Positions 14,906 to 49,726 of a stretch of 64,000 nt of DNA are shown here, in pieces. A model generated the notes under the pieces. The model searched no databases. It worked only from the letters and a program-made list of their open reading frames with translations, and had not been told where the DNA came from. This DNA is from an uncultured Alphaproteobacteria bacterium. GTDB taxonomy: Bacteria > Pseudomonadota > Alphaproteobacteria > RF32 > CAG-239. The stretch covers positions 1 through 64,000 of the forward strand of contig CALXWE010000006.1 of the NCBI GenBank assembly GCA_944392295.1, in the 5' to 3' direction. Every line of letters begins with the position of its first letter. The first letter of the stretch is position 1. Made by a program: the position numbers and the translations under genes.

Positions 14906-15940
14906 TTAGTAACGCTTAGCCATTTCGGAAAGCGGAACAACTTTAATTTTATCGGCATGACCGGCAGCACCGAAAGCAATGTAGCGAGCTTCGCAAACTT
15001 TTTGCATTTCTTCGATAGCCGGTTTTAAGTATTTACGAGGATCAAACTCTTTGGGGTTTTCAATAAACAAACGACGGATAGCACCGGTGATTGCCATACG
15101 GCAGTCGGTATCAACGTTTACTTTACGAACACCAGATTTAATACCTCTTACGATTTCTTCAACCGGGACACCATAGGTTTGCGGAATAGCGCCGCCGTAA
15201 GCATTGATTAAATCTTGCAATTCTTGCGGAACGGAAGAAGAACCGTGCATAACCATATGAGTGTTAGGCAATTTTTTATGGATTTTTTCAATTACATCAA
15301 TAGCCAAGATTTCGCCATCGGGTTTACGAGTGAATTTATAAGCACCGTGAGAAGTACCAACGGCAACAGCCAAAGCATCAACATTGGTGTCAGCCACAAA
15401 GCGGGCAGCTTCATCAGGGTCGGTTACCAAACGTTTTTTATCAATAACGCCTTCGGCGCCATGACCGTCTTCTTTATCGCCTTTGCCGGTTTCTAATGAA
15501 CCGATAACGCCCAATTCACCTTCAACCGAAGCACCGACGGCATGAGCACGGGCAACAACTTCTTTGGTAACTCTTACGTTATATTCATAAGAAGAAGGAG
15601 TTTTGCCGTCAGCTTCCAAAGAGCCGTCCATCATAACCGAAGAATAGCCGTTAACAATGGCCGATTGGCAAATATCAACCGAAGAACCGTGGTCTTGGTG
15701 AATACAAATCGGCAATTCGGGGAACATTTCAATACCGGCTTGTACCATATGGCGAATCATCGGGTCGCCGGCAAATTTACGAGCGCCGGTTGAGGTTTGC
15801 AAAATAACCGGGGCATTAACTTTACGAGCAGCCTGCAAAACGGCAATAATTTGTTCCATATCGTTAATATTAAAAGCCGGAACACCGTAACCGTTTTCGG
15901 CAGCATGGTCAAGAATCTGACGCATAGAAATTAAAGGCAT
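14906..15940 (-). CDS. fba: Fructose-bisphosphate aldolase, class II
   Basis: A 344-residue zinc aldolase of CbbA type, interconverting fructose 1,6-bisphosphate with glyceraldehyde 3-phosphate and dihydroxyacetone phosphate. Motifs: [14 protein letters not shown] near the N-terminus, CIHQDHGSS (about residues 80-88, catalytic Asp and zinc His), [21 protein letters not shown] and MHGSSSVP (phosphate and zinc binding), then [14 protein letters not shown]. The ribosome site is AAGGAGA. It is monocistronic, diverging from RNA element A. No other glycolytic gene is adjacent. Confidence 0.97.
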
Positions 15941-16072: not shown

Positions 16073-16101
16073 TTGACATTTTTAATTATTTTACGTAAGC
16101 T
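16073..16101 (+). promoter_or_regulatory. Promoter-like region of RNA element A
   Basis: The -35 is TTGACA (16073-16078), then 17 bases, then TAAGCT (16096-16101) as a weak -10. The start would fall near 16108, three bases before the first RNA hairpin. Confidence 0.55.
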
Positions 16102-16107
16102 TAAAAA

Positions 16108-16302
16108 CAGATAGCCGATTGGCTATTCGGAACTTAACAATTCCTTGATAAAGCATCTTACTTGGTATGAGGATGTAAAATTTTATACCTTCCGGCGGTG
16201 GCCGGAAGGCGGTAAAATAAGCCTTGCGGTGAATATACCGCGCTATTCTTTATCATAGTTGTTAACTTCCGGTCGCTTTTCAGTTTTGAAAGCGATTTTT
16301 TT
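16108..16302 (+). ncRNA. Structured RNA element A (candidate ncRNA or leader)
   Basis: About 195 nt. Read-out structure: hairpin ATAGCC-GATT-GGCTAT (16111-16126); a closing stem 16128-16140 with 16259-16271 (12 of 13 pairs); inner stem GATAAAG (16147-16153) with CTTTATC (16248-16254); hairpin CATCTT/GAGGATG; a strong hairpin CCTTCCGGC-GGTG-GCCGGAAGG (16188-16209) extended by ATTTTA/TAAAAT; GCGGT/ACCGC; then a terminator TCGCTTT/GAAAGCGA with seven T (16273-16302). Element B at 17245-17406 shares its cap loop, order and sequence blocks. The terminator ends 34 bases before the prepilin-like gene, so it may be a free RNA or a regulated leader. I do not match it to a known class. Confidence 0.6.
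16273..16302 (+). terminator. Terminator of RNA element A
   Basis: TCGCTTT pairs with AAAGCGA around TCAGTTTTG, followed by seven T. It ends 34 bases upstream of the prepilin-like gene start. Confidence 0.88.
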
Positions 16303-16336
16303 ATTAAGTAATCTTATTAAAAAAAGGAAGATAATT

Positions 16337-17035
16337 ATGAAACACATTAATGAAAACGGTCGTTCTATGGTAGAAATGCTTGGCGTGTTAGCCATTATCG
16401 GTGTGTTATCCGTTGGTGGTATTGCCGGTTATTCTAAAGCCATGAACAAATATAAAATCAACAAAACAACTGATCAAGTATCTATGTTGGTAGCAAACAT
16501 CAGAACTTTGTTCTCTTCTCAAGGTGATTATACGGGTTTGGACAATGCTGCAGCCATTAAATTTGGTGTTGTTCCTAATGAAATGTATGAAGCTGATGAC
16601 GATACCGGTTCAACCATGAAAAACGCTTTCAATGGTTCAGTTACCATTACTTCTGCCGTTGCAAGAAGTGGTAGTGATGTACAAGATGCATTCATTATTG
16701 AATATAACGGTTTGTCTGAAGAAGCTTGCATCACCATTGCAACCGGTGACTGGGGTTCAGGTCAATCTTCTGGTTTGATTGCTATTGCTGCCGGTGTTGT
16801 TGAGGATTCTCCTGATGCCGGTACACTCAGCGCTATTGGTTCACAACTTGGTGCTGGTGAGGATGGTACCGGTGGTATATACGTTGATAATGTAGATGTG
16901 GCTGCTTCTGGTTCTGGTATTGCCGCTCCTGGTGCTGATAACCCGACCCCGATGAGCGTTACTGAAGCTGTTACCGCTTGTGGTGCAGATGGATCATCAG
17001 GTGCCAATCACTCTGTAGCTTGGAAGTACTACTAA
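16337..17035 (+). CDS. Prepilin-like protein with type IV N-terminal motif
   Basis: 232 residues from the start MKHINENG, preceded by AAGGAAG; a longer in-frame start would run through the terminator of RNA element A and is rejected. Prepilin signal: cleavage after Gly8, mature RSMVEMLGVLAIIGVLSVGG with Glu at +5 and Arg at +1, then a long hydrophobic helix. The mature domain is Gly/Ser/Ala/Asp-rich with a pair of C-terminal cysteines and the end SVAWKYY. Homologous to 406-1023 over the N-terminus and the C-terminal tail. Codon use looks optimised and even, suggesting good expression. Likely a major pilin/pseudopilin; assembly genes lie elsewhere. Confidence 0.85.
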   Translation: MKHINENGRSMVEMLGVLAIIGVLSVGGIAGYSKAMNKYKINKTTDQVSMLVANIRTLFSSQGDYTGLDNAAAIKFGVVPNEMYEADDDTGSTMKNAFNGSVTITSAVARSGSDVQDAFIIEYNGLSEEACITIATGDWGSGQSSGLIAIAAGVVEDSPDAGTLSAIGSQLGAGEDGTGGIYVDNVDVAASGSGIAAPGADNPTPMSVTEAVTACGADGSSGANHSVAWKYY

Positions 17036-17131
17036 TTTTTAAAAAAGTTTGTATGGCGGTGTTGCTATCCCCTATATGCGATACTGCCGTATAAAAGAAA
17101 ATATTATGTGTGAAGCATAATATTTTCCCCT

Positions 17132-17173
17132 AAAAAATCTCCTCAAATCAATTATGGTTTGAGGAGATTTTTT
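17132..17173. terminator. Bidirectional terminator after prepilin-like gene
   Basis: AAAAAATCTCCTCAAA pairs with TTTGAGGAGATTTTTT. A preceding hairpin GAAAATATTATG/CATAATATTTTC (about 17096-17127) adds to it. Confidence 0.92.
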
Positions 17174-17244
17174 ATGCCTTAATTTTTTAAACAAAAAAAA
17201 TACGAATTGCTCTTGTAAAACGCTCAACTTGTTTTAATATAAAT

Positions 17245-17406
17245 ACCGTCGCCGATTGGCGATGGTGTCTCAAAAACACCTCACTATGAAACTCCTTGAT
17301 AAGGGGAGTGGATGAAATAAGCGTATCTTGTGTACGGCGAATAAATCCGACTGTATAGTGACAGTTTTTGAGCTCCCCGCTTTGAAGTTTTCAAGGCGGT
17401 TTTTTA
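17245..17406 (+). ncRNA. Structured RNA element B (candidate ncRNA or leader)
   Basis: About 160 nt. Hairpin ACCGTCGCC-GATT-GGCGATGGT (17245-17266, 9 bp); closing stem CTCAAAAAC (17269-17277) with GTTTTTGAG (17364-17372) continued by CACTAT (17282-17287) with ATAGTG (17355-17360); hairpin ACTCC/GGAGT (17291-17309) holding CCTTGATAA; a small CGTA/TACG stem; then a terminator stem 17377-17399 with T-run. Shares with element A the GCCGATTGGC cap, CCTTGATAA, GGATG-N-AAA-type and AATAAGC blocks in the same order. A weak promoter (TTGTAA, 16 bases, TAATAT at 17235-17240) would start it at the first hairpin. It ends 26 bases before a small HTH gene. Confidence 0.6.
17377..17406 (+). terminator. Terminator of RNA element B
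   Basis: CCGCTTTGAA pairs with TTCAAGGCGG (one G-T) around GTT, followed by seven T. Confidence 0.9.
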
Positions 17407-17432
17407 TAACAAAAATATAGGAGCTGATTAAT

Positions 17433-17690
17433 ATGCTAAATAAACAAATACGTAAAAAAGCCTTAAGGCAAACTTTTTATGATTTATCTGTTCAACTTAC
17501 CAGGTTGCGGCAAGACAAAAATTTATCAATCGCCGATTTGTCGGCTTTAAGCAAAATTCCTGACTTTTGGCTCGAATCGCTGGAAAGTAAAAGCTTTCCG
17601 TTTAATATCGGTTATTTAACACAGCTTGCCTCGTTTTATGATAAACGCATAAAAATTGAGCTTGTTGATGTTGTTGATGATAATAACTAG
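17433..17690 (+). CDS. Small XRE-type helix-turn-helix protein
   Basis: An 85-residue protein: a basic N-terminus, then an HTH of Cro/XRE type (LTRLRQDKNLSIADLSALSKIPDFWLESLESKS, about residues 22-55) and a short tail (KRIKIELVDVVDDNN). It would bind DNA as a small repressor; targets are unknown. The ribosome site is AGGAGCTG. It lies 26 bases downstream of RNA element B's terminator, so its expression may depend on read-through, or it may have its own start in between (not seen). Confidence 0.8.
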   Translation: MLNKQIRKKALRQTFYDLSVQLTRLRQDKNLSIADLSALSKIPDFWLESLESKSFPFNIGYLTQLASFYDKRIKIELVDVVDDNN

Positions 17691-47086: not shown

Positions 47087-49726
47087 ATGTTAGATAAAAA
47101 TTACAACCCGAAAAATTTTGAAGAAAATATTTATAAAGATTGGGAAGAATCGGGCGATTTTAAACCGGATATGCGCCAAAACTCAGAGGCTTTTTCAATA
47201 GTTATTCCTCCTCCGAATGTTACCGGTGTTTTACATATGGGACATGCTTTGGATGATACCTTGCAAGATATTTTAGTAAGATATAACCGTATGCTTGGTA
47301 AAAAAGTTTTGTGGCAGCCGGGTACCGACCATGCCGGTATTGCAACTCAAATGGTTGTTGAACGTAATTTGGCAAAAGAGGGAATATCTCGTCATGATTT
47401 AGGCAGAGAAAAGTTTGTTGAAACGGTTTGGAAATGGCGTGAAAAATCGGGTGGCACAATTTGTAAACAACTGCGCAGATTGGGTGCTTCTTGCGATTGG
47501 AGCAGAGAACGTTTTACCATGGATGAGGGCTTAAGCCGCGCTGTTCGTAAAATTTTTGTTTCGCTTTATAAAGACGGATTGATTTTTAAGGCAAAAAAAC
47601 TCGTTAACTGGGATCCTAAACTCGGTACTGCCGTTTCCGATTTGGAAGTTGTTCAAAAAGAAACCGTTGGTAAAATGTATTACTATAAATATCCGATTGA
47701 GGGTGAAGAAGGTGAGTTTATTCATATTGCCACCACTCGTCCGGAAACCATGTTTGGTGATACTGCCGTTGCTGTTTCTAAAGAAAATGAAAAATTAAAG
47801 CATTTAATCGGTAAAAATTGCATATTGCCGATTGTTAATCGGGTCATTCCGATTATCGGCGATGAGCACGCTGACCCCGAAAAAGGTACGGGTGCGGTTA
47901 AAATTACTCCGGCTCATGATTTTAACGACTTTGAGGTCGGAAAACGCCACAATCTGCCGATGATTAATATCTTAAACGAAGATGCTACCTTAAATGAAAA
48001 TACTCCGTTTGAAGGTATGAGCACTATGGAAGCTCGTGCTAAAACCATCGAAAAATTAACTGAGCTTGGTTTAATGGAAAAAATTGAAGACCATCCGATG
48101 GTTATTCCTTACGGCGACCGTTCCGGCGTTGTTATTGAACCGTTAATGACCGACCAGTGGTTTGTTGATGCTCCGAAATTGGCAGTTGAAGCCATGCGTG
48201 TGGTTGAAAACGGCGAAATGCAGTTTGTTCCGAAGTCGTATGAAAAAACTTATTTTGAATGGATGCGCAATATGCAGCCATGGTGTATTTCACGCCAATT
48301 ATGGTGGGGACACCAAATGCCGATTTGGTACGGACCGGACGGTGAAATCTTTTGTGAAGAAACCGAAGAAGAAGCTTATAAAGCCGCTCTTAAGCACTAC
48401 GGCAAACAGGTTGAATTAACCAGAGAAACCGATGTGTTGGATACTTGGTTTTCATCCGGGCTTTGGGCTTTTTCAACTTTGGGCTGGCCTGATGATACCG
48501 AATATTTGAAAACCTTTTATCCGACTTCGGTTTTGGTAACCGGCTTTGATATTATCTTTTTCTGGGTTGCCAGAATGATGATGATGAGTATGTACGCCAT
48601 GAAAAAAGTACCGTTTAAAAAATGTTATATTCATGGCTTGGTACGTGATGAAAAAGGTCAGAAAATGTCTAAATCCAAAGGCAACACGGTTGACCCGATG
48701 GAAACAATTGAAAAATACGGTGCCGATGCTTTGCGCTTTTTTATGGCGGCTATGGAAACTCAAGGACGTGATGTTAACTTGTCGGAAGCGCGTATTGCCG
48801 GATATCGTAATTTTGCCACAAAATTATGGAATGCCGCTCGTTTTTGCGAGATGAACGAATGCCGTACAATGGCTGATTTTGACCCGTATACCGTTAAATT
48901 ATCGGTTAATAAGTGGATTGTTGCCAAGGCTGATGAAGCAACAATGGAAGTTACCAAAGACTTAAATGATTTTCGTTTTTCGGATGCTGCCAATGCCGTT
49001 TATCAGTTTGTTTGGGGAACTTTCTGCGATTGGTATATCGAATTAAGCAAACCGATTTTTTACGGTCAAAATGCTCAAGATATTGCCGAAACCAGAGCTA
49101 CCGCAGCTTGGGTTTTGGATAGAATTTTAGTTATTTTGCATCCGTTTATGCCGTTTATTACTACCGAGCTGTGGAATAATTTGGCAACGCGAAGCGTAAA
49201 ATTGATACATGCCGCTTGGCCGCAAGTTAAAGAAGTTAATGCCGATACTGCCGAGATGGATTGGGCTATTGATTTAATAAGCACCATTCGTTCTATGCGT
49301 GCGGAAATGAATTTGCCGGCAGGCGCTAAGCTTACGATTTATCTTAAAGATATGAATGATAACTCTAAGGCTTATTTGGCAAATATGAAAACTTTGGTTT
49401 GCTCTTTGGCGAGATTAGAAAATGTTGAAATTTTCGGTCAGTCTCAAGAAATTACCAAAGATATGGTTCAAAAAGTGTTTAGAGAAGGGGCAATTTTGTT
49501 ACCGCTTAAAGGTGTGGTTGATTTTGCTGCCGAAAGAGAACGCTTAAATAAAGAACTTGAAACATTAAACCGTAACTTGGAAGGATATGCTCGTAAGCTT
49601 TCTAACCAGAGCTTTGTAGAAAGAGCGCCGGCCAATGTGGTTGCCGAGGAAAAACGTCGTCAGGCGGAGGCTTTGGAAAATAAAGCCAAAGTTGAAGAAG
49701 CGCTGGCACGAATTGTCGGTTTATAA
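47087..49726 (+). CDS. valS: Valyl-tRNA synthetase
   Basis: An 879-residue class I enzyme charging tRNA-Val. PPPNVTGVLHMGHALD holds the HIGH signature (HMGH, about residues 51-54) and GQKMSKSKGN the KMSKS loop (about 524-528). The large editing domain (CP1) lies between them (GTGAVKITPAHDFNDFEVG). The C-terminal coiled coil (ERLNKELETLNRNLEGYARKL) is present. Ribosome site AGGAAATT. Follows the DUF2497 gene, the order typical of Alphaproteobacteria. Confidence 0.97.
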   Translation: MLDKNYNPKNFEENIYKDWEESGDFKPDMRQNSEAFSIVIPPPNVTGVLHMGHALDDTLQDILVRYNRMLGKKVLWQPGTDHAGIATQMVVERNLAKEGISRHDLGREKFVETVWKWREKSGGTICKQLRRLGASCDWSRERFTMDEGLSRAVRKIFVSLYKDGLIFKAKKLVNWDPKLGTAVSDLEVVQKETVGKMYYYKYPIEGEEGEFIHIATTRPETMFGDTAVAVSKENEKLKHLIGKNCILPIVNRVIPIIGDEHADPEKGTGAVKITPAHDFNDFEVGKRHNLPMINILNEDATLNENTPFEGMSTMEARAKTIEKLTELGLMEKIEDHPMVIPYGDRSGVVIEPLMTDQWFVDAPKLAVEAMRVVENGEMQFVPKSYEKTYFEWMRNMQPWCISRQLWWGHQMPIWYGPDGEIFCEETEEEAYKAALKHYGKQVELTRETDVLDTWFSSGLWAFSTLGWPDDTEYLKTFYPTSVLVTGFDIIFFWVARMMMMSMYAMKKVPFKKCYIHGLVRDEKGQKMSKSKGNTVDPMETIEKYGADALRFFMAAMETQGRDVNLSEARIAGYRNFATKLWNAARFCEMNECRTMADFDPYTVKLSVNKWIVAKADEATMEVTKDLNDFRFSDAANAVYQFVWGTFCDWYIELSKPIFYGQNAQDIAETRATAAWVLDRILVILHPFMPFITTELWNNLATRSVKLIHAAWPQVKEVNADTAEMDWAIDLISTIRSMRAEMNLPAGAKLTIYLKDMNDNSKAYLANMKTLVCSLARLENVEIFGQSQEITKDMVQKVFREGAILLPLKGVVDFAAERERLNKELETLNRNLEGYARKLSNQSFVERAPANVVAEEKRRQAEALENKAKVEEALARIVGL

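Follow-up and report, generated by a model that had tools for sequence, protein, structure and literature searches.

sRNA-Xcc1 (Rfam RF02221) measures 88 nt by RACE mapping of its ends and gives a clear band on Northern blots (PMC2996969). It occurs upstream of symE in integron cassettes (PMC12444791) and in Xylella as five copies in one cluster (PMC12189769), and the literature we searched names no target for it. The C4 RNA of phages P1 and P7 binds its target mRNA through two segments, a' and b', and thereby covers the ribosome-binding site (RBS) of that mRNA (PMC5320573).

Here we compare these systems with a locus in a window of 64,000 nucleotides (the whole stretch of DNA analysed), where two RNAs, A and B, flank a type IV pilin-like gene. 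An initial annotation had proposed two structured RNAs at this place, and both are borne out, since each folds far better than its shuffled versions. A and B belong to one RNA family, of which each represents a type. Fifty B-type copies were collected by profile iteration, while A-type relatives were sought by BLAST with A and 31 matches in the genomes of the bacterial family were kept. A covariance model of the 74-nt core, called R1, was built from 40 B-type copies only; this model, trained without A, nevertheless detects A (E 0.0022 in a search of 411 kb), which confirms the proposed relationship of the two elements.

From 5' to 3', the order of parts is hairpin P1, the 5' strand of P2, the 5' strand of P3, hairpin P4, P5, hairpin P6, the 3' strand of P2, the tail and a terminator. 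The loop of P6 is the 3' strand of P3, and the 3' strand of P4 has two possible partners: the P4 5' strand or the tail, the latter pairing being called P7. The parts of A and B, all on the + strand, are listed below with the evidence for each.

16073-16101, +: putative sigma70-type promoter of A, TTGACA, 17-nt spacer, TAAGCT (sequence; consensus match only)
16108-16302, +: RNA A, entire A-type leader (folding -75.1 kcal/mol, shuffled mean -45.4, z -7.5; R1 27.2 bits; RF02221 38.5 bits, below the cutoff of 53)
16110-16127, +: A P1 hairpin with GATT loop (fold)
16134-16140, +: A P2 5' strand UUAACAA, partner UUGUUAA at 16259-16265 (covaries on both sides at 6/6 A-type pairs, in an alignment where A's own row is displaced by one column)
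16147-16153, +: A P3 5' strand GAUAAAG, partner the P6 loop at 16248-16254, a pseudoknot (7/7 pairs covary; 29/29 A-type copies)
16188-16209, +: A P4 hairpin (fold); its 3' strand, 16200-16208, doubles as the P7 5' strand
16209-16241, +: A P5 with conserved internal loop AAAAUAAG / GAAUAU (conservation in two alignments)
16243-16258, +: A P6 hairpin CUAU..AUAG (A-type alignment)
16264-16274, +: A tail AACUUCCGGUC, P7 3' strand and candidate anti-Shine-Dalgarno (SD) segment (type-level complementarity to the GGAAG RBS)
16274-16302, +: A intrinsic terminator hairpin and U-tract (sequence and fold)
16326-16330, +: Shine-Dalgarno GGAAG of the pilin gene (sequence)
16337-17035, +: type IV pilin-like gene downstream of A (Pfam PilS E 3.7e-19, Bundlin E 4.3e-14)
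17213-17240, +: putative promoter of B, TTGTAA, 16-nt spacer, TAATAT (sequence; same position in other B-type copies)
17242-17405, +: RNA B, entire B-type leader (folding -63.6 kcal/mol, shuffled mean -38.8, z -6.5; R1 84.1 bits, B itself being among the R1 training sequences)
17245-17266, +: B P1 hairpin (both-side changes at 6/9 pairs)
17269-17277, +: B P2 5' strand CUCAAAAAC, partner 17364-17372 (both-side changes at 7/9 pairs; 96.1% of cells paired)
17282-17287, +: B P3 5' strand CACUAU, partner AUAGUG at 17355-17360 in the P6 loop, a pseudoknot (50/50 copies)
17291-17309, +: B P4 hairpin; 17303-17308 doubles as the P7 5' strand
17310-17348, +: B P5 with conserved internal loop GAAAUAAG / GCGAAUAA (4/4 outer and 4/4 inner pairs covary)
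17351-17364, +: B P6 hairpin CUGU..ACAG (invariant in B-type; compensated between types)
17371-17378, +: B tail AGCUCCCC, P7 3' strand and candidate anti-SD segment (nested model, P(SD-tail) 0.60)
17377-17405, +: B intrinsic terminator (sequence and fold)
17420-17425, +: Shine-Dalgarno GGAGCU of the HTH gene (GGAGC enrichment after B-type leaders)
17433-17690, +: small HTH gene downstream of B, 85 aa (weak Pfam HTH_25, E 0.002)

Much of the layout that the initial annotation had described is present in both RNAs: the 5' hairpin capped by GCC-GATT-GGC, a long-range stem, AATAAGC and an intrinsic terminator. The shared layout also exceeds chance, as the 1.43 Mb genome contains four instances of the pattern GCCGATTGGC-N10-40-CTTGATAA and none of the reversed control. 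The closing element was only partly described, in that the long-range stem exists but is not a simple stem: P2 and P3 cross P7, so that the full fold is either a pseudoknot or a pair of alternative folds. Two sequence blocks had been taken as equivalent parts of A and B, and their structural positions rule this out. The letters of the 9-base block CCTTGATAA lie in different structural places and are not homologous: GATAAAG of A (16147-16153) is the P3 5' strand, with its partner CUUUAUC in the P6 loop, whereas in B the block belongs to the P4 hairpin (17291-17309), where CTCCTTGATAAGGGGAG forms helix P4. The GGATG-N-AAA match is coincidental, for GGATGAAATAAGC of B aligns with GGCGGTAAAATAAGC of A at 16208-16222, while GGATGTAAAA of A sits in an additional hairpin that B does not have. 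The identical P1 cap is likewise no signature of the family, as it is missing from relatives of A.

Covariation under structural constraint, which had been suspected from the two copies, is real. The nested structure of the B-type holds 336 cells changed on both sides, compared to 127 in shuffles, with a covariation score of 0.493 versus 0.223, and the signal collapses once partners are slid by one column. B-type P7 is paired in 98-99% of cells and shows compensatory changes (columns 68/149). For the A-type, the whole pseudoknotted structure is paired in 93.7% of cells, compared to 83.5% for shuffles, and 15 pairs show changes on both sides where shuffles give 11.6; P7 is paired in 100% of cells, with one compensated pair. 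An alignment-free comparison of each P6 loop with its own upstream strand gave a mean of 7.4 bp for the B-type (50/50 copies), versus 4.3 bp with the loops of other copies, and 6.2 versus 3.8 bp for the A-type (29/29), with p<0.0001 in each case. Pairing with the own strand in all 79/79 copies indicates that the P3 sequence is largely private to each copy. The P6 stem differs by type (CUAU/AUAG in A, CUGU/ACAG in the B-type, CNG/CNG in the sRNA-Xcc1 type), and the P5 internal loop, AAAUAAG / GAAUAA, is the most conserved unpaired part across these three types.

The two elements are far from alone, although only two had been noticed. They are part of a large, undescribed family of leader RNAs of about 165-200 bases in small alphaproteobacterial genomes. 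Their own genome of 1.43 Mb holds at least 12 copies (11 by R1, 12 with A), and R1 finds matches in 90 of the 126 genomes of the bacterial family (71 of the 98 good ones) and in 14 of its 16 genera, reaching at least 38 copies in each of two genomes of 1.4-1.5 Mb. A class-wide R1 search matched 14 of 289 genomes and 12 of 224 genera. The model also scores fourteen further A-type loci, a type on which it was not trained (best E 3e-5, 411 kb search). BLAST with one copy gives matches in 31 of the 126 family genomes, the weakest of which are terminators only. Named matches to the exact core pattern belong to uncultured Alphaproteobacteria and proteobacteria, rumen samples being the source of several, and the exact B- and A-type core patterns have no match in viral contigs. 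The suggestion of a lineage-specific RNA family or of terminator-bearing leaders holds, the family being mostly lineage-specific. An R1 match at 49015-49078 of the window (15.2 bits, E 1.5) was taken as chance, and a possible further copy (L005:13440-13560) was dismissed with a fold z of -0.58.

Against Rfam release 15, neither A nor B has a match above cutoff, and only sRNA-Xcc1 stands above noise: RF02221 scores A at 38.5 bits (E 7e-5 for that stretch) and B at 21 bits, short of its gathering cutoff of 53. For the C4 and c4-2 models, neither a search of 16090-17420 up to E 10 nor one of the window at the gathering threshold gave a match. Both RNAs carry features of RF02221, namely the outer stem P7 around P5 and P6 and the AAUA/GAAUAA internal loop. 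Conversely, R1 detects six sRNA-Xcc1 loci at the correct position (E from 1e-4 to 0.14). RF02221 matches A and two related loci (L094 and L125) below cutoff, and a locus found in the class-wide R1 search (L128) at 70 bits. Each model thus detects the other's set, which links the sets both ways; this mutual detection and the shared core support a relationship of A and B to sRNA-Xcc1. Being below the RF02221 cutoff and having no C4 match, A and B are filed as members of neither family. The statement that they resemble no known riboswitch class agrees with Rfam, which supports no such class on A or B, but the elements are not without relatives, the core being related to RF02221.

Of 299 genomes of the phylum, 50 carry RF02221 itself, while the 14 control genomes gave no match. 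When the flanks of 30 sRNA-Xcc1 loci are inspected, the 5' strands of P2 and P3 lie upstream of the Rfam model, which implies that RF02221 covers just the 3' part of a longer RNA; the RACE-mapped length of 88 nt is consistent with processing to a 3' product. At these loci the 3' half binds its own upstream half at -29.6 kcal/mol, compared to -22.2 kcal/mol for the halves of other loci (p<0.0001). The RBS of the next gene copies the 5' half of the RNA: at locus L170, for example, the RNA reads CCGAAAACCCC..CAACAAG and the stretch before AUG reads CGAAAA-GGAG-CAACAAG. The 3' half pairs with its own RBS at -17.9 kcal/mol versus -12.7 kcal/mol for other loci (p<0.0001). We found no description of the upstream 5' half or of the RBS mimicry of sRNA-Xcc1 in the literature searched. 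The next genes of 27 sRNA-Xcc1 loci and three class-wide R1 loci, 30 in total, were scanned and include genes of phage antirepressor types, namely Rha (4), Bro-N (4), P22_AR_N (1) and KilA-N (1), as well as SymE (1). Several loci of the sRNA-Xcc1 type (L144-L173) carry an NCCA-like stretch (ACCA, GCCA, TCCA) after the P7 3' strand, which is absent from A and B and is reminiscent of RNase P substrates like the C4 precursor.

Turning to the genomic setting, the promoter-like site that the annotation had placed directly ahead of P1 is present in both A and B as a consensus match in the sequence. Across the 50 B-type copies, the best -10 element ends within about 1-4 nt around a fixed distance before P1; the consensus scan alone scores 25/50 copies compared to 26% of shuffled sequences, about twice as many. 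The copies show terminator-like 3' ends, and most of them lie 10-60 nt ahead of a same-strand gene with its own SD. The genes downstream are very mixed (HTH, pilin, outer-membrane protein (OMP), LRR, glycosyltransferase, phage antirepressor). Behind B-type leaders, 12/40 genes match BspA-type LRR_5, many encode small HTH proteins, and five of the 40 carry the pilin motif GRSM(V/I)EMLG; paralogues of the HTH gene of B stand behind other copies. Behind A-type leaders, 15/28 genes match beta-barrel OMPs and five have the pilin motif. Some copies are arranged in tandem, and the first of a pair can be without a gene. Tandem pairs occur at L046, L049, L005 and L006, where, in first copies that lack a gene, the terminator is still followed by a stretch resembling GGAGC or GGAGU, as though leader and RBS had been duplicated together. 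Elements intermediate between A and B were seen in other families of the class (L125, L139 and L126) before a pilin gene or a gene for a small secreted-looking protein; the pilin cases have the tail GCUUCC followed by GGAAGC.

Around the locus itself, A adjoins a divergent ORF (14906-15940) that, judged from its protein sequence, is class II fructose-bisphosphate aldolase-like, and L073, a B-type copy from a different genus, is found directly 3' of, and on the same strand as, a homologous aldolase-like gene. Behind the pilin gene, at 17126-17176, there is a long hairpin that has T-runs on either strand; it is probably a bidirectional terminator and yields several chance Rfam matches. Elsewhere in the same genome, nine contig ends (C16, C12, C6, C10, C5, C4, C1 and C18, which are L189-L196, and also C9) share a 68-71-bp sequence, GTAACAAGAAAACCACGCGTTAGACGCGTGG..., that stands directly after the T-run of a terminator-like hairpin in 8/8 ends read, two of these hairpins being leader-RNA terminators. 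Its appearance suggests a repeated mobile element that targets terminators and ends in this sequence.

The tail and the downstream RBS match by type, AACUUCC with GGAAG in A and AGCUCC with GGAGC in B. The tail itself is ACUUCC in A, where A-type tails are mostly AACUUCC, and GCUCCCC in B, where B-type tails are mostly (A/G)GCUCC. GGAAG occurs in 22/28 genes following A-type leaders as opposed to 1/42 after B-type leaders (Fisher 9e-12), while the latter have GGAG in 37/42 and GGAGC in 18/42; among 107 control genes of the same loci, GGAAG occurs in 5 and GGAGC in 3 (Fisher 2e-15 and 4e-9). A tails prefer A-type over B-type RBSs in 28/28 cases and B tails the reverse in 42/42. As the copies are related, the p-values for SD-tail matching are too small. 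Swapping tails and RBSs among copies of one type weakens the pairing only slightly (p 0.012 for B, 0.19 for A), so that the match at type level could reflect inheritance of a cassette rather than selection. A nested model of leader plus gene start predicts the SD-tail pairing with a probability of 0.60 for B and 0.03 for A, and with medians over copies of 0.60 for the B-type and 0.42 for the A-type. No clear mimic of the P6 loop was found in the RBS of A genes (p 0.33), and that of B genes shows a marginal gain of 0.3 bp (5.19 vs 4.88 bp, p 0.008). At type level, antisense complementarity to the downstream RBS is seen for the tail of A and B; in the sRNA-Xcc1 group it is strong.

A and B thus appear to retain the competition for the RBS, through the tail rather than the P6 loop, and this is why we read them as leader switches acting in cis, within a multicopy superfamily that includes the full-length sRNA-Xcc1 and with the tail shared between P7 and the SD. 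We give this reading about an even chance (roughly 0.5). Each copy would comprise its own promoter-like site, the P2/P3 pseudoknot and an intrinsic terminator 20-60 nt before the gene, and the tail would be contested by the P4 3' strand, forming P7, and by the downstream Shine-Dalgarno region. With P7 formed, the RBS would be free and the gene on, and the base of the A-type terminator would lose 3 bp; with P4 formed, the tail could cover the SD of read-through transcripts and turn the gene off. The B-type terminator keeps about 8 bp with P7 formed, so P7 is no obvious antiterminator there. Transcription, the switch and its direction, as well as the role of the terminated short RNA, are what we infer from these features.

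The gene-less first copies of tandems count against the leader switch, as do the weak SD-tail probability of A itself (0.03), the slight advantage of own over swapped tail-RBS pairs, the B-type terminator that persists with P7 formed, and the P6 loop, which in contrast to that of the sRNA-Xcc1 group has no clear counterpart in the RBS of A and B genes. Such copies, together with the terminator-like 3' ends, would be expected if the elements were mainly free-standing sRNAs of 165-200 nt acting in trans, whose tail serves as an anti-SD for a number of mRNAs, among them the mRNAs of sister copies that have the same SD type. The downstream gene would then be merely one target in a cross-repressing network. 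GCUCC is common to most B tails, so any B RNA could reach most B-type RBSs, and mature sRNA-Xcc1 is indeed an 88-nt species with mapped ends and a Northern band (PMC2996969). On the other hand, most copies stand 10-60 nt before a same-strand gene, and P3 varies by copy and matches only its own upstream strand, which favours self-recognition; we therefore consider a mainly trans-acting role rather unlikely. The conserved P5 loop could point to another function, that of a leader sensing a ligand or protein, in which AAAUAAG/GAAUAA would be the binding site, read-through of the terminator would be regulated and the SD-tail pairing would be secondary. This loop is the most conserved unpaired part in the A, B and sRNA-Xcc1 types, and a single regulon of surface proteins would suit a common signal. 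The very mixed downstream genes, however, are unusual for a metabolite riboswitch, and the many copies in many genomes also speak against sensing, which we regard as quite unlikely. That A and B are two unrelated hairpin-rich terminators alike by chance is scarcely credible: two of the common blocks first noted are indeed coincidental, but covariation, the model searches and the matches in 90/126 genomes refute it.

Our verdict is that the elements are real and form a large, so far undescribed variant of a kind of RNA that is already known. More tentatively, a phage-type, C4-like module may have been domesticated in host-associated Alphaproteobacteria to yield a genome-wide set of up to tens of cis switches for surface proteins and small HTH regulators, a possibility that we entertain with some reserve. 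If so, the surface proteins under control would be pilins, beta-barrel OMPs and BspA-like LRR proteins, and a private pseudoknot combined with a tail shared within the type would allow both private and cross-regulation of surface genes. If the leader-switch reading is right, very small genomes would carry a strikingly copy-rich family of regulatory RNA leaders, and a prophage antirepressor switch would seem reusable for the control of bacterial surface proteins. The Rfam entry for sRNA-Xcc1, known as an sRNA of plant pathogens, would represent the 3' part only, with the RBS of the next gene as a direct target candidate.

Among known systems, sRNA-Xcc1 is the nearest to A and B: it shares P7 from the P4 3' strand to the tail, P5 with the AAUA..GAAUAA loop, P6 and then the P2' strand, and it is multicopy, at times tandem (PMC12189769 for Xylella) and located directly before a gene. 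A and B differ by lying below the Rfam cutoff, by having their own 3' intrinsic terminator and by a P6 loop that does not clearly match the RBS downstream; they precede chromosomal genes for surface and HTH proteins, whereas sRNA-Xcc1 precedes phage antirepressor genes or symE. The sRNA-Xcc1 group in turn looks, and by analogy would work, like C4 antisense RNA. C4 (RF01695) has an outer stem around two hairpins and two short antisense segments, as these RNAs do (PMC5320573), and is processed from a longer transcript and acts by RBS occlusion (PMC5320573); the sRNA-Xcc1 group is C4-like in having one mimic upstream in the RNA and the second at the RBS, unlike A and B, which lack a Rfam C4 match in the region searched and a clear RBS mimic in the P6 loop. 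IsrK of the Salmonella prophage Gifsy-1 resembles the present arrangement in that a single promoter drives both a short RNA that is terminated and a read-through mRNA whose translation is governed by RNA pairing (PMC4825925), but it activates in trans, has another sequence and structure, and no family match was seen. The Group 1 C4-like sRNAs of Acinetobacter baumannii offer a parallel as a phage-type regulatory RNA with many chromosomal copies whose targeting loop varies (PMC5320573); unlike the present family, which is related to sRNA-Xcc1 and stands before surface and HTH genes, they conform to the C4 motif.
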